From positions 1-25,857 of the forward strand of contig JAUUZA010000007.1 of assembly GCA_030590165.1 (NCBI GenBank): a DNA stretch of 25,857 bases, in the 5' to 3' direction. Within the stretch, counting starts at the first letter, position 1. Each line of letters begins with the position of its first letter. The DNA comes from Candidatus Altarchaeota archaeon (GTDB lineage: Archaea > SpSt-1190). Shown piece by piece: positions 9,311-20,036 of the stretch. The notes under the pieces are model-generated. The model was not told the origin of the DNA. It saw only the letters and a program-made list of their open reading frames with translations, and searched no databases. Both the position numbers and the translations under genes were made by a program.

Positions 9311-12301
9311 TTATATTAATTCTTCTTGTTTATTATTTCCCCTTGTCGAATAAATCCCAAAAATCAAGATAGCTATGGCAATTATGGTTCTAAAACCAAA
9401 TCCTAAATTTATGGCGGACTTCATCATGGCATATTTTGAATAATACATTGAAGTAATGTAATCTTTCTTGAAATACGCTTCCTCTGCCTTGATAACATAG
9501 GGACCCGCAAGTTTTGACGAAATAATATTTGAAACAGATATTTTAGCTTGACTTAATAATTCCTTGGCTTCATTTTCATAATTACTTGAACGAAAAAGAA
9601 AAGCTTCTAATCCAGAATCTTTGAATAATTTAAAATATCCCTCAACCGCTTGTTGATAATTCTCAGACTTAAAAAGTTCTATATTTTTTTCAACACCCTC
9701 AAGTCTAATGCATTGAAGTTTTGGAAGTTTATGTGTTTTTGAAACCTCTGAAATTATATTAGATTCAACACAACCATATTCACTATGAACTTTTTCAAAT
9801 ATTTCTTTAGCTGCTTCTTCATAATCAGAATAACCTAAAATTTCAGGTACTGAAATTATTTCTTTGCTTTTTTCATCATCTGAAAAAATCATAGTTAAAT
9901 CTGTATTTACTATCACTTCTTTTTCTTCAAAAGGAGAAAGCGTTACACCTATTATTGCGGGTGTATCAAATCCTAATTCTTCAGCCGAAAATTCATTCAC
10001 AAAATCTATTGTTGAATTAACTAAATTTGTTACTAAAAAACCATTATCAGAAGAAATAATTTCAACAGAAGGTCCTTTGAAAACAACTCTTGTTTCCTTA
10101 TTACAAGGAACTGTTACAAAAATATTCGACCCATCATATGTATATGGGTGTGATGCTTCCATTTGTTTTCCACTGAAAGGATGAGACATTGAAACTCTTC
10201 CTTGTGAAAAATCACAAGTCGTGAATACCTTGCATTCAATTTCTGAGGAAAGCCCAATACTAGACGTAATACAGCCATAAGACGCATCACCAAGATTGGA
10301 ATTATATGAAAATTCAAAAAAACTAAGTGCAGGCAAATTTTTCAAATTGAGCCTAACCTTTTCTTCTGAAAAACTAACTGAAGTAAGATAGGAAATATCT
10401 CCTACAAAATTTCCTGAATCAATATTCACAGGCCTAAATTTCAAATCAAGTAATGAACTTGCCTTATCAAGAGAAATTCCCCAAGTATTATTGACAATAA
10501 CTACACATTCAACAACGAAATCTTTACCAATAATAGGAATTTCAGGAATACATTTTACAGTCGAGGGTACATTTGAAGAAAAATCTGAAAGTAAATCAAT
10601 ATAAATTTCATTTAATTCATCAACATACTCTTCGAGTGAAAGATAATAAATTATATTTGTTAACACATTCGGAGTATAAGCAGAAATTTCTAAATTTTTA
10701 ATTTCAGGAAATTCAATATGTGAAGAAAGTTGAGAAATAATTGTTAATAATTTTGCTTTAATCCCTAAAGCCTTGTCTCTATTATTTTTAAAAAAATCTG
10801 AAAATATCTCATCAGATAATTGAATAATTTTCCATTTAAGTTTTTCAGCTTGGTCAGGAAACATTTTATTTGTTGAAATCATAAAACTCAAATCTGACTG
10901 AAATGTTTTGAGTGTATCTGCATATTTTGTTAATAATGAAACAGTGGTATATGGCTCAACCCTAATTAATAATTTTTCAAGAGCTTCCAATTCTCCTTTT
11001 AATTCATTAATTCTTAACACCCAAGCATCTTCATTCAATCCTAATTCTTCCAAGTGTTCGGCTCTCAACTCTAAAAACTTCTTAGATGTCTGTTTTAGCT
11101 TATTTGAAAGGTCTCCTTGAAAAGTACATTCTCCCCCATAAGTCCTACAAAGGTCTTCCATGGTTTCTATTTTTTCTTCCAAAATCCCCCATGAAAGAGA
11201 AACAAAGGTTTCAAAATAATTATAAGTTTTTATTGCGTCTTTAAACAAAATAAATTTTTCACCTAAATTTTTAGATAATTCGGCCGAGTGAATTTTATTT
11301 TTTATATCAATAAATGATTTATTTATTTCAGAAAATTTCAAGTCACGCTCAACAGACAAGAGTCCTTTATTTGGGGACAATTCATTAAGAGCTAAAAGAA
11401 CTGAAGTGTCATTCAAAATATTTTGAAGTGTATTCGCTTGATTAAGAATTCCTACCCCCTTATCTAAATTTAAGAAAGCTTCACTCCTTAACCCACTCAC
11501 ATGTGTATAAACTAAAGAAATATATTTACTAAAATCAACTGCCCAATTTAGACGTGTATTAAGTTCAGACCAATCCGGACCTATTATTGAATATTCTAAT
11601 TGTTCTTGAGTATAATATTCATCTGGAGAACAATATGAAGTAATATCTAAAAATAAATTTTGGTCCATTACATATTTTGGAACTACGAAGTCTGACCCCT
11701 CAAAATTCCAATGACATCCCCACTCTTTAAATGACATTAAAACATTAAACGGACGATAACCCCTAATAATTTTAAAATCCTTAGCGCGCATTTCCAAATC
11801 AATAAAAGTAACCTTGTCTGAAGTTGAAATTTCCCCTGAAAAAACAGAAAGACTTTCTGTTTTCTCAAGCTCATCCATTAAAATTGAAAAATCATATGAT
11901 AGTATTTCTGAATTGAGCTCACCAACTTCATGTTCATAATCCACTAATTTTTCCAATTTCAAAATTAGTCCCTTGTTGAAAAATTTAAGTACGACCTGTT
12001 GGGCAAAATAAGTCCATTTATTCATCTTAAAAATATCACTCTGAACCTCTCTCGCAAGAATTATCATATCGGCACTCTTTTCCCTTAAAAGATTCATTTT
12101 CTCACTCAAATCATTATATTCTGTTTTTGCCCTCCCCTCCAAACCTAAATCTGTAGATGAAATTAAATTCGGAAATTCAGGATGTGAAGCAAGTCGTTCT
12201 GCATAATCTTGTGCGGCGTTAGAGTCCCAAAAAAGTTGTTCAGTAAAAAGATATTCCGCAAAAACTAATGAAAATAAAAAAAATAAACTAAGTTTTTTCA
12301 T
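9311..12301 (-). CDS. Large secreted coiled-coil protein with C-terminal anchor
   Basis: This 996-residue protein belongs to no family I recognise. The N-terminus (KKLSLFFLFSLVFA) is a cleavable signal peptide. Most of the chain is acidic and helix-rich, with several coiled-coil-like stretches (for example LEELGLNEDAWVLRINELKGELEALEKL). A middle region around 600-800 is rich in beta strands and cysteines and could be extracellular Ig- or jelly-roll-like domains. A single transmembrane helix near the end (TIIAIAILIFGIY, about 971-983) is followed by a short charged tail, giving type I topology. It is the last gene of the minus-strand envelope operon, and its start overlaps the preceding gene by 14 nt. 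It may be a stalk, adhesin or scaffold for the pilin-like proteins upstream. Confidence 0.75.
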   Translation of the reverse strand: MKKLSLFFLFSLVFAEYLFTEQLFWDSNAAQDYAERLASHPEFPNLISSTDLGLEGRAKTEYNDLSEKMNLLREKSADMIILAREVQSDIFKMNKWTYFAQQVVLKFFNKGLILKLEKLVDYEHEVGELNSEILSYDFSILMDELEKTESLSVFSGEISTSDKVTFIDLEMRAKDFKIIRGYRPFNVLMSFKEWGCHWNFEGSDFVVPKYVMDQNLFLDITSYCSPDEYYTQEQLEYSIIGPDWSELNTRLNWAVDFSKYISLVYTHVSGLRSEAFLNLDKGVGILNQANTLQNILNDTSVLLALNELSPNKGLLSVERDLKFSEINKSFIDIKNKIHSAELSKNLGEKFILFKDAIKTYNYFETFVSLSWGILEEKIETMEDLCRTYGGECTFQGDLSNKLKQTSKKFLELRAEHLEELGLNEDAWVLRINELKGELEALEKLLIRVEPYTTVSLLTKYADTLKTFQSDLSFMISTNKMFPDQAEKLKWKIIQLSDEIFSDFFKNNRDKALGIKAKLLTIISQLSSHIEFPEIKNLEISAYTPNVLTNIIYYLSLEEYVDELNEIYIDLLSDFSSNVPSTVKCIPEIPIIGKDFVVECVVIVNNTWGISLDKASSLLDLKFRPVNIDSGNFVGDISYLTSVSFSEEKVRLNLKNLPALSFFEFSYNSNLGDASYGCITSSIGLSSEIECKVFTTCDFSQGRVSMSHPFSGKQMEASHPYTYDGSNIFVTVPCNKETRVVFKGPSVEIISSDNGFLVTNLVNSTIDFVNEFSAEELGFDTPAIIGVTLSPFEEKEVIVNTDLTMIFSDDEKSKEIISVPEILGYSDYEEAAKEIFEKVHSEYGCVESNIISEVSKTHKLPKLQCIRLEGVEKNIELFKSENYQQAVEGYFKLFKDSGLEAFLFRSSNYENEAKELLSQAKISVSNIISSKLAGPYVIKAEEAYFKKDYITSMYYSKYAMMKSAINLGFGFRTIIAIAILIFGIYSTRGNNKQEELI

Positions 12302-17248: not shown

Positions 17249-17533
17249 GTGGGAGCCAAAGCATTAGAACGTATGTTTCTCCATGAAAAACCGGCTAAAT
17301 TACTGGTTAAAATTAGGGAAGGTAATGGTAAAAAATATGCATCAATCCTAGCCAAGGAAGTAGATTGTACATACTCACATTGTATTAGGATACTCCAGGA
17401 ACTTGAAAAACAGGGACTCGTTAGCTTCGAGAAAGAAGGGAGAACTAAGATGATTATTATGACAAAATCCGGGGAAGATGTTGCCTTCGCATTGGAAAAT
17501 ATTTTCAGACTTTTAGGTCGTTTATTTGACTAA
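17249..17533 (+). CDS. Small winged-helix DNA-binding protein
   Basis: This 94-residue protein is a single MarR/ArsR-like winged helix. VKIREGNGKKYASILAKEVDCTYSHCIRILQELEKQGLVSFEKEGRTKMIIMTKSGEDVA contains the helix-turn-helix (about 32-55) and the wing (FEKEGRTKMIIMT), then a C-terminal helix. There is no ligand domain, so it is probably a dimeric regulator. The GTG at 17249 follows a TATA-like box by 25 nt. Its 3' end overlaps the convergent regulator gene by 12 nt. Its targets are unknown; autoregulation or control of the neighbouring regulator genes is plausible. Confidence 0.78.
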   Translation: MGAKALERMFLHEKPAKLLVKIREGNGKKYASILAKEVDCTYSHCIRILQELEKQGLVSFEKEGRTKMIIMTKSGEDVAFALENIFRLLGRLFD

Positions 17534-17908
17534 AGCAGACACATAACCCTCAATTCTATCAAGTATTTCTTCTAAAACATATCGTCTAAACACCCTAAAA
17601 GCGACGGAAAGGTCATTTTCAGCAAGAAAATATTCCTTTCTCCCATCAACAAGGCGCAATGCCTTTAGGCGCTCTAAATGATATCTAACTGCAGATTCTG
17701 TTATTCCAGTCATCTCAGCTAAATCTTCAACTGAAATGGGTTTTTTTTCCACTAAAATATATTTGAAAATGACCTCAAGTGGGCTTTTCTTTGTCCCAGG
17801 TCGAATAAGCCCCATAGAAAGTAAAAAAAGACGTAAATTTCTATCAAAATCCTCAGTAGGAAGCTCATATTTCCTTAAAGTTACATCAAAAACCGGTTTA
17901 TCAGTCAT
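17522..17908 (-). CDS. wHTH regulator, paralogue A
   Basis: This 128-residue protein has an N-terminal segment with YELPTEDFDRNLRLFLLSMGL, a winged helix (FKYILVEKKPISVEDLAEMTGITESAVRYHLERLKALRLVDGRKEYFLAE, about 49-98) and a C-terminal helical tail (FRRYVLEEILDRIEGYVSALV) that may mediate dimerisation. The same plan and spacing appear in the protein at 18160-18543. The ATG at 17908 is about 27 nt from an AT-rich TATA-like element (ATATTTAATA, centred about 17935). A perfect 20-bp palindrome lies just upstream of that element, so it is probably autoregulated. The regulated pathway is unknown. Confidence 0.76.
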   Translation of the reverse strand: MTDKPVFDVTLRKYELPTEDFDRNLRLFLLSMGLIRPGTKKSPLEVIFKYILVEKKPISVEDLAEMTGITESAVRYHLERLKALRLVDGRKEYFLAENDLSVAFRVFRRYVLEEILDRIEGYVSALVK

Positions 17909-18097: not shown

Positions 18098-18155
18098 GGT
18101 ACCCCATCAGGTACCTAGTGAAATTTCATATAAAATGTGAAAAATTTCGGGTGAT
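18098..18155 (+). promoter_or_regulatory. Promoter of wHTH paralogue B: GGTACC pair, TATA, SD
   Basis: GGTACC occurs at 18098-18103 and 18110-18115, 12 bp apart; each copy is palindromic and together they form an inverted repeat. A TATA box (CATATAAAAT, about 18127-18136) follows, then GTGAAAAATTTC. A good Shine-Dalgarno sequence, GGGTGAT (18149-18155), complementary to an archaeal 16S 3' end, sits 4 nt before the ATG at 18160 and 7 nt before the ATG at 18163. Confidence 0.55.
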
Positions 18156-18159
18156 AGAA

Positions 18160-18543
18160 ATGATGAAAATTGAAATAAAAGAAGTGCCCCTTTCAGGAAT
18201 TAAATCGGTTGAACAATTAGCTGCATTCGTACTCTCCTCCTTAGGACTTTCAAATCTAAAAGATACGAGTGATGTTAAACTTCTCCTTTCCTTTGTAAGA
18301 AGAAGAGAGGGATTAAAGGTAGATGAACTCAAAAAAATTGCTGGCCTAGGACGGACTGCAACATACTCCCGCATCAAAAAGTTCCTAAACGCCGGAATTA
18401 TATACAAAACAAAGGGTTCCCTCTATAGACTCCGAGAAAGAAGCTTAAAAGATACTCTAGACTTCAGAGTAAGGCGAGACATTCAACGTGTTTTTGATAG
18501 TATAATCGAGGTTAGTGAGGAATTAGAATCTAAACTAAAGTAG
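18160..18543 (+). CDS. wHTH regulator, paralogue B
   Basis: This 127-residue protein has the same layout as the minus-strand regulator at 17522-17908. A N-terminal segment with LAAFVLSSLGL comes first, then a winged helix (LLLSFVRRREGLKVDELKKIAGLGRTATYSRIKKFLNAGIIYKTKGSLYRLRE), and a helical tail (RRDIQRVFDSIIEVSEELESKL). I chose the ATG at 18160 (18163 is equally possible) because of the Shine-Dalgarno GGGTGAT just upstream. The GTG at 18118 would add 14 residues, including the promoter TATA. Inverted GGTACC sites lie upstream. It could regulate itself or its paralogue; the ligand and other targets are unknown. Confidence 0.74.
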   Translation: MMKIEIKEVPLSGIKSVEQLAAFVLSSLGLSNLKDTSDVKLLLSFVRRREGLKVDELKKIAGLGRTATYSRIKKFLNAGIIYKTKGSLYRLRERSLKDTLDFRVRRDIQRVFDSIIEVSEELESKLK

Positions 18544-18572: not shown

Positions 18573-18699
18573 AATATCTTTTGATATTGAAAAACTCAAT
18601 AGTTGTAGGACAAGCTATATAATTTTAGAAAAAAAGAATTGAAAGGTTAAAAAAGTTTAAACTTAAAAAAGACAACCACCATTAAATTTATGCCCAGAT

Positions 18700-18772
18700 A
18701 GCCCTGTGGTGTAGTGGTCAAGCATATGGGACTTTGGATCCTGTGACCCCGGTTCAAATCCGGGCAGGGCTA
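18700..18772 (+). tRNA. tRNA-Gln (anticodon TTG)
   Basis: A full cloverleaf can be drawn. The acceptor is AGCCCTG/CAGGGCT. The D arm is GTGT/GCAT. The anticodon stem is TGGGA/TCCTG (two G-T pairs) with loop CTTTGGA, so the anticodon is TTG, reading CAA and CAG. The T arm is CCCGG/CCGGG with loop TTCAAAT. The discriminator is A and the CCA is not encoded. No intron is present. The sequence closely matches the archaeal tRNA-Gln pattern, which is usually charged with Glu and then amidated by GatDE. A T-run follows (18774-18779). Confidence 0.95.
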
Positions 18773-18861
18773 TTTTTTATCTTGATTTTCTCTATAAAAC
18801 TTCTTGTTAAAACAAATAAGTTTTTTTGATGTTATTGACATCATCTTTTTTAATGTTTTAC

Positions 18862-19029
18862 CTCAATGATGTTACAATGACCTCAATTAAGACTCATTGA
18901 TGTTAATTCGCATACACTACAACCGCATTTTGAGCTCATTTAAGCTCATTGACCTCAAAAAACGACAAACATCAATCTCAATTAACCTCAAATAATCTCA
19001 ATTAATCTTAAAAGACCTCATTGACCTCA
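18862..19029 (+). repeat. Helically phased CTCA-decamer array
   Basis: CTCA words begin at 18862, 18882, 18893, 18935, 18945, 18954, 18977, 18987, 18997, 19017 and 19026, with a CTTA variant at 19007. Many continue as CTCAATTAA or CTCATTGA. In the last block, spacing is 10, 10, 10, 10 and 9 bp. The gaps between blocks (42 and 23 bp) are close to whole helical turns, so nearly all copies face the same side of the DNA. All are on the plus strand. Confidence 0.7.
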
Positions 19030-19221
19030 CTGACTTTTAGTGTTTTTGATAAAAAAAGGAGTTGAAAAGGAAAAATAAGAGGAATTTTGATGTTTTTCCC
19101 TTAAATGAGAGGAATTGTGAGAAATTTTATACTTCTCAAGAGTGTATGGTTTTCCTTTAAGAAGGGGAGGGGGACAGGGAAACAAAGGGATTAAGAGAAA
19201 AATATGAGGAAATACAATGAA

Positions 19222-19342
19222 AGTGAGGGATTTTTCACTGGAATTAGGGAAAAGGGAGGGGAATTCATCAAAAGTGAGGGATCTTTCACTAAAAGTAAGG
19301 AAAAGGGAGGGGGACTTCCTCAAAAGTGAGGTGTTTGTCACT
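19222..19342. repeat. Three 51/52-bp repeats with AGTGA-N8-TCACT
   Basis: Inverted pairs AGTGA...TCACT are at 19222-19239, 19273-19290 and 19325-19342, each with an 8-nt gap, at periods of 51 and 52 bp. The flanks are also related: AAAAGTGAGGG in front and AGG(G)AAAAGGGAGGGG behind. The units are diverged rather than identical, and no cas genes are present. Confidence 0.7.
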
Positions 19343-19548
19343 GAAATTCGTACAAAGAGGTTTAGAATAAAGGAATGTGAGAGTAAGATATGAACGGAGA
19401 AGGTGTGAAAAGGGGTAAAAACACTAAAATGTGAGGGAAATCCCTTAAAATGTAAGGAAAAGGGGATAAAGTATAAAAAACAATAAATGTGTGTTTAAAA
19501 TGGGAAAAGGTGAGCTTAAAACCATTTAAAAGTTATGAAAATAAATTA

Positions 19549-19701
19549 AGTGAATGCTCTTAGTTATATTATAATGTCCTTATTTACCTTAAAATATTTC
19601 ATTCACTTTTATTTTTAATCATTCACTATTATAAACACCATCTAGACACCATTTAACTCCACATAAAAATTACATTCACTTTTGTTTATCTTTCATTCAC
19701 T
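19549..19701. repeat. CATTCACT iterons
   Basis: CATTCACT occurs at 19600-19607, 19620-19627, 19673-19680 and 19694-19701. The pairs are spaced 20 and 21 bp, and the two pairs are separated by 53 bp. The first and third copies continue CATTCACTTTT. One inverted copy, AGTGAATG, is at 19549-19556. The AGTGA core is shared with the 51/52-bp repeats but mostly lies on the other strand here. Confidence 0.72.
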
Positions 19702-20036
19702 CCTTTCTTTATATTCCTTATATTTTTTATGTCCCCCTTTATCCCTCTTAAATTTTATTCTTTCAGTCTGCCAATCAAATAAATTTAAATTGAAGTACCC
19801 CACACAAGTCTTTATTCCATTCTTGAAAAAAGGAATATTAAGCCCCTCTTCCATAAGAAATGAGGAAAAAGGAATAATAATGAAACTCCCCCTTCCCTGG
19901 GTAAAAGTTTGTGTTTCGTCTCCAAAAGGTCGTGACACTTGATTTTTACTATAAATAAAAGGAGTTCTGAGTAATTTTAAAGGTTAATTTGTTTTCTAAA
20001 CACGCCGTATTGTAATTCCTATGTTTTTCTCTATTA

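Follow-up and report, generated by a model that had tools for sequence, protein, structure and literature searches.

A conserved helix-phased box array downstream of tRNA-Gln in a family of Altiarchaeota

Results

Genes and features around the array

The window, the whole stretch of DNA analyzed here (25,857 nucleotides), is an entire contig (C40) of a 724-kb archaeal MAG. A tRNA-Gln (TTG) gene lies on its plus strand at 18699-18773, and an array of short repeated words starts directly downstream, an arrangement found in all seven genomes of the family. These genomes (G000-G006), which include same-family Altiarchaeota bins from hydrothermal vents and of the SpSt-1190 type, are all incomplete MAGs, with a completeness of 84-88% for G000, G001, G004, G005, and G006. 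Counts over them are not independent, because all seven sequences share ancestry. The gene order DUF373, wHTH, wHTH, TrmB-like wHTH, tRNA-Gln, and array is common to 7/7, while the spacer from tRNA-Gln to the array (98-153 bp in the seven genomes) is not conserved. At its left end, the conserved cluster leading to tRNA-Gln begins with a small histone gene (PF00808, 15952-16164, plus strand). Beyond the array, where contigs reach that far, NAC, TruD, DP2, DP1, and orc1 are encountered. Elsewhere in the window, a 996-codon ORF on the minus strand (9311-12301) matches no Pfam or NCBIfam family.

In G005 and G002, orc1 shares a contig with the array and lies about 7.4 kb and 9.8 kb past the conserved block, respectively; in the window's own genome, it is on a separate contig. 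The gap of about 290 bp upstream of orc1 contains an AT-rich element together with ORB-type boxes, such as ACCTTGGTTTCCAGTGGAA-like ones, that are found in two orientations. This gap, which is probably the oriC of this Altiarchaeota family, corresponds to positions 2804-3076 of L043 (G000, contig C1) and 8868-9159 of L041, where three ORB-type boxes, the AT-rich element, and an inverted box lie beside DP1. The distance between array and probable oriC is about 8-10 kb where both are on one contig. The array itself is not adjacent to orc1/cdc6, as an ORB-type origin would be; its 110-bp block contains no ORB box of the TTCC-N-TGGAA type, and the GC skew does not flip there. Scanning with the family ORB matrix, we observe one site in the window's gap downstream of the array (19845-19869, minus strand, score 14.9, the best in the contig) and none in the corresponding gaps of G004, G005, and G006. 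The ORBs and AT-rich element upstream of orc1 indicate that the array is origin-proximal, but not an ORB origin, so that the origin function considered for the array in the original prediction is not supported.

Repeated words and their spacing

The word CTCA starts at 18862, 18882, 18893, 18935, 18945, 18954, 18977, 18987, 18997, 19017, and 19026, and the variant CTTA at 19007, with successive steps of 20, 11, 42, 10, 9, 23, 10, 10, 10, 10, and 9 bp. The original prediction, made from the sequence of the window, had counted eleven CTCA and one CTTA in 168 bp, with spacings of 10, 10, 10, 10, and 9 bp in the last block, and our recount gives exactly these values. Dinucleotide shuffles of the 168-bp stretch contain on average 2.0 CTCA, and none of 5000 reached 11. 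The longest chain of words at 9-10 bp steps has six members; it was equaled in 0/5000 shuffles and compares with a maximum of two elsewhere in the contig, so that the regularity, for which comparison with shuffled sequence had been proposed, exceeds that of every shuffle. TYAWTRA boxes taken alone are common across the contig, with up to 8 per 175 bp. The proposal that all sites lie on one face of the helix fits within blocks and only roughly between them: the gaps do measure 42 and 23 bp, but 23 bp corresponds to 2.2 turns, which is not a whole number, whereas both gaps had been taken as near whole turns.

A rigid 110-bp core block

A DNA search of 60 relatives recovered the stretch in the same-family genomes. 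In 7/7 of them, a core block of 110 bp (18927-19036, plus strand) aligns with 0 indels and 37 invariant columns, whereas the upstream part of the array (18862-18926, plus strand), with its CTCA words at 18862, 18882, and 18893, is poorly conserved. The ungapped identity of the block averages 67% (57-74%), compared to about 30% for shuffles. The number of gap openings made by the aligner averages 3.1 in the block, compared to 13.9 and 12.9 in the two flanks, which are unalignable when aligned from the tRNA end. Conservation in close relatives, on which the original prediction had staked the array, is therefore observed. Used as a profile, a block model built from the sequences only finds one locus per genome in all seven family members (E from 1e-22 to 1e-26) and no match in the three members of the class outside the family. 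Among about 290 further archaeal genomes, it finds nothing convincing, one match at 9e-4 being near chance when so many genomes are searched. We found no description of such an element in the open-access literature, in line with the earlier statement that no archaeal element with this CTCA repeat had been described. A phage or plasmid origin was rejected, because nothing from phages matched and plasmids gave a single short match (E = 0.01). A protein-coding block was also discarded, since no gene-like ORF runs across it.

The true unit is not CTCA, but a near-palindromic TYA(A)WTRA box occurring every 9-10 bp, as TYAAWTRA at a 10-bp step and as TCANTGA at a 9-bp step. Family-wide, the boxes start at block columns 10, 20, and 29 and again at 52, 62, 72, 82, 92, and 101. 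The first group occupies 18936-18961 in the window (starts at 18936, 18946, and 18955; spacing 10 and 9). The second group, with the consensus TYAAWTRA and TCANTGA in its last two boxes, occupies 18978-19033 (starts at 18978, 18988, 18998, 19008, 19018, and 19027; spacing 10, 10, 10, 10, and 9). Between the two groups, the heptamer ACATCAA (18969-18975, plus strand) is the longest invariant run. Inside the boxes, the invariant letters follow the alternating pattern T-x-A-x-T-x-A, and the places between them vary as C/T and A/G, as when a short palindrome is read in one groove. Because the box is near-palindromic, the plus-strand polarity of the array is only partial. Indeed, TGAG is present in TGAGCTCA, just where the first core box lies, and the block model also matches its own minus strand in the profile search. 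The plus-strand orientation of all sites, as originally described, thus results in part from taking CTCA as the unit.

Downstream promoter, helicase gene, and non-coding gap

An Lhr-type helicase gene is found between the array and NAC in G002 and G003 only (L027 4443-7109 and L026 3582-6218), and it was not detected anywhere in G000, G001, G004, G005, and G006, which are the MAGs with 84-88% completeness. Where the contig reaches, nothing protein-like takes its place in these genomes, and a tblastn search for a helicase remnant in the 1-kb gap gave no significant match. The unrooted tree of four neighboring proteins separates G003 from G002, which makes an ancestral helicase with at least two losses the simplest history, two gains being an alternative that the tree also allows.

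A TATA heptamer occurs 62, 54, 51, 52, and 53 bp after the block in G002, G003, G004, G005, and G006, respectively, that is, in five of the six informative genomes (chance 0.003-0.016 each, for a slot chosen after inspection of the data), the distance in G002 being about one turn off the others. An RTGAGRG element follows 68-81 bp after the block in 6/6 informative genomes (chance 0.002-0.022 each). In the window it lies at 19105-19111 (plus strand), 68 bp after the block, and in five relatives just downstream of the TATA box. In G002 and G003, the TATA box precedes the helicase start codon by about 28-31 nt, as expected for a leaderless archaeal mRNA. Since the distances to TATA and RTGAGRG are kept although the intervening DNA is not conserved, the array and a promoter may work together, a linkage outside what the original prediction foresaw. 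The array is intact in the window's genome, which lacks both the TATA box and the helicase; this argues against the promoter as the sole reason for keeping the array, and for an additional or different role.

In the helicase-less genomes, the gap downstream of the array is non-coding, about 1.0 kb long (1034, 1039, and 994 bp), purine-rich at first, and unconserved in sequence, also when G005 is compared with its sister genome G006. The purine-rich non-coding part of the window (19060-19480) carries GTGAGGG/ATGAGAG words, partly as a 51-bp tandem repeat. RTGAG copies lie within 19223-19437 (plus strand) at 19223, 19274, 19326, 19377, and 19431, about 51-54 bp (5 turns) apart. In relatives, the copies frequently follow one another at 51-54 or 21 bp, which is about 5 or 2 helical turns, and the DNA in between shows no similarity. 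The phase statistic of these copies is exploratory, the motifs having been picked by eye and the window's copies forming a 51-bp tandem repeat. CATTCAC boxes, found on the minus strand at 19600, 19620, 19673, and 19694 (region 19600-19700; spacing 20, 53, and 21 bp), also occur in G005 and G006 and are absent from G004. We regard both the RTGAG copies and the CATTCAC boxes as associated features of putative function.

Discussion

Small dimers sitting next to one another on one face of the helix would be expected to use just such a pattern, with a short palindromic box once per turn and a strict geometry. Taken as a step alone, it is highly probable that the block is a cooperatively filled protein-binding array. 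The cooperative, helix-phased binding put forward in the original prediction is, as an inference, well supported by the absence of indels over 110 bp in seven genomes whose flanks are unalignable, by TYA positions that are the same across the family, and by the lack of any RNA or protein product. The spreading or filament formation of the bound protein, which was proposed along with it, is speculation. Chance clustering or neutral tandem-repeat expansion, to which the AT-rich, low-complexity composition and the many TYAWTRA boxes of the contig could have pointed, has a negligible probability. The spacing chain is beyond all shuffles, and this explanation is ruled out by the gapless conservation in six other genomes, which belong to other genera.

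We tentatively favor the reading that the block is a single-copy, cis-acting protein array, most likely controlling the downstream rightward promoter. A single kind of small DNA-binding protein, probably a dimer, would line the block in many adjoining copies, one per helical turn, each reading one TYA(A)WTRA box. The array would then act as an activator platform or as a silencing operator for a rightward promoter located about 5-6 turns downstream of the block. In G002 and G003, the gene served by this promoter would be that of the Lhr-type helicase; in the helicase-less genomes, the promoter would give a purine-rich non-coding transcript or nothing detectable. Presence of the array in genomes without the helicase speaks against promoter control, as does the fact that the downstream transcript, if there is one, is not conserved between G005 and G006. 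The three neighboring winged-helix proteins, encoded at 18118-18543, 17522-17908, and 17249-17533, are the obvious first candidate binders. The TrmB-like one was rejected as a proven binder, since no array accompanies its relatives in other archaea, its AlphaFold model is poor (pLDDT 54), and a fold search gave generic winged-helix matches only.

The main rival, which we consider rather unlikely, is an origin-proximal chromosome-organizing or centromere-like site independent of transcription, where the same kind of protein filament would segregate or anchor the newly replicated origin region or load condensin on it. The array occurs once per genome, in G002 and G005 about 8-10 kb separate it from orc1 and the ORB origin, and its architecture resembles the direct repeats of parC and tubC (PMC5016525). 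It has also outlasted the helicase and, in the window's genome, the TATA box. Nevertheless, closeness to oriC may reflect plain synteny, and this rival leaves the fixed TATA distance unexplained. A partition site, as suggested in the original prediction, is conceivable, but no ParB, SegB, or RHH partner was found. The ParA-like genes seen in context, two in G000 and one in G005, are of the MinD type, with no ParB neighbor or other small DNA-binding partner adjoining, and none was found in G002; ParA/ParB was therefore set aside for the loci read. RHH_1 (PF01402), the only RHH family searched, is present in just 1/7 array-bearing genomes, which led us to reject an RHH binder. SegB was rejected as well, because its 13-bp palindrome TCTAGASTCTAGA is absent from the block. 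It is doubtful, though conceivable, that the block represents the first centromere-like or origin-proximal anchoring site of an Altiarchaeota/DPANN-type archaeon, built as a filament with one dimer per turn and working without ParA/ParB or SegAB.

The remaining explanations all have a low probability. A nucleosome-positioning sequence for archaeal histones, with A/T steps each 10 bp and G/C half a turn away, would agree with the histone genes found in 7/7 genomes, one of them in the same gene cluster, and with the pooled A/T periodicity of the block, which peaks at 10.4 bp. We consider it improbable: the periodicity does not stand out from background in G003 and G005, being equaled by about 20-29% of ordinary windows, although the boxes are conserved there, and histone positioning needs neither an invariant heptamer nor zero indels. 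It is about as improbable that the array serves as a second replication origin recognized by Orc1 or a paralog. The adjacent replication genes (DP2, DP1, and orc1), the second Orc1-like protein of several relatives, and the one ORB-scoring site in the window's gap are in its favor, but the ORBs and AT-rich element are found upstream of orc1, the gaps of G004, G005, and G006 have no ORB-like site, and no skew change occurs at the array. It is scarcely probable that the block is a non-coding RNA gene or a structured RNA element. Its sequence is indeed conserved downstream of a tRNA gene, but the consensus fold reaches only -0.98 kcal/mol with almost no covariation, and there is no Rfam match.

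To our knowledge, little has been established on how archaea with tiny genomes control or segregate their chromosomes, and we know of hardly any cis-elements described in Altiarchaeota. A rigid and unique 110-bp array that is present in every available family member, lies near the origin, and has outlived its downstream gene offers a concrete DNA bait. Such a bait would allow recovery of the binding protein and a test of a role in transcription versus chromosome maintenance.

Several known systems resemble the array in part. Regularly spaced sites that share one helix face are also used by archaeal regulators of the Lrp type, and the multi-site Lrp/AsnC operators of Ss-LrpB and Ptr2 resemble the array in having several degenerate palindromic boxes near a promoter, about 100 bp being wrapped by cooperating dimers (PMC2995911). 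Nevertheless, Lrp boxes are two or three turns apart from center to center, whereas the array has a step of one turn, and no Lrp gene is recognized beside it. The plasmid sites parC, bound by ParR, and tubC, bound by the small HTH protein TubR, consist of direct-repeat runs (10 bp for ParR) in split blocks that may flank a promoter, and their proteins are small, dimeric, and form a superhelix (PMC5016525). Direct repeats of about 10 bp in one or two blocks, as in parC/ParR-type arrays, are likewise present here. However, parC and tubC lie upstream of their own motor/adaptor operon, whereas the array is chromosomal and has no recognizable motor or adaptor gene beside it. The SegAB system of Sulfolobales (PMC12284271) also uses archaeal chromosomal sites for a small DNA-binding protein, but these palindromes are scattered genome-wide, while the array has another motif at one locus. 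Archaeal oriC with ORB elements occupies the same chromosomal neighborhood in this family, with the ORBs and AT-rich element upstream of orc1 and not in the array. Phased arrays of binding boxes are thus a known kind of element, and what is new here is the sequence, the host group, the position, and, for an archaeal chromosome, the spacing of one turn.
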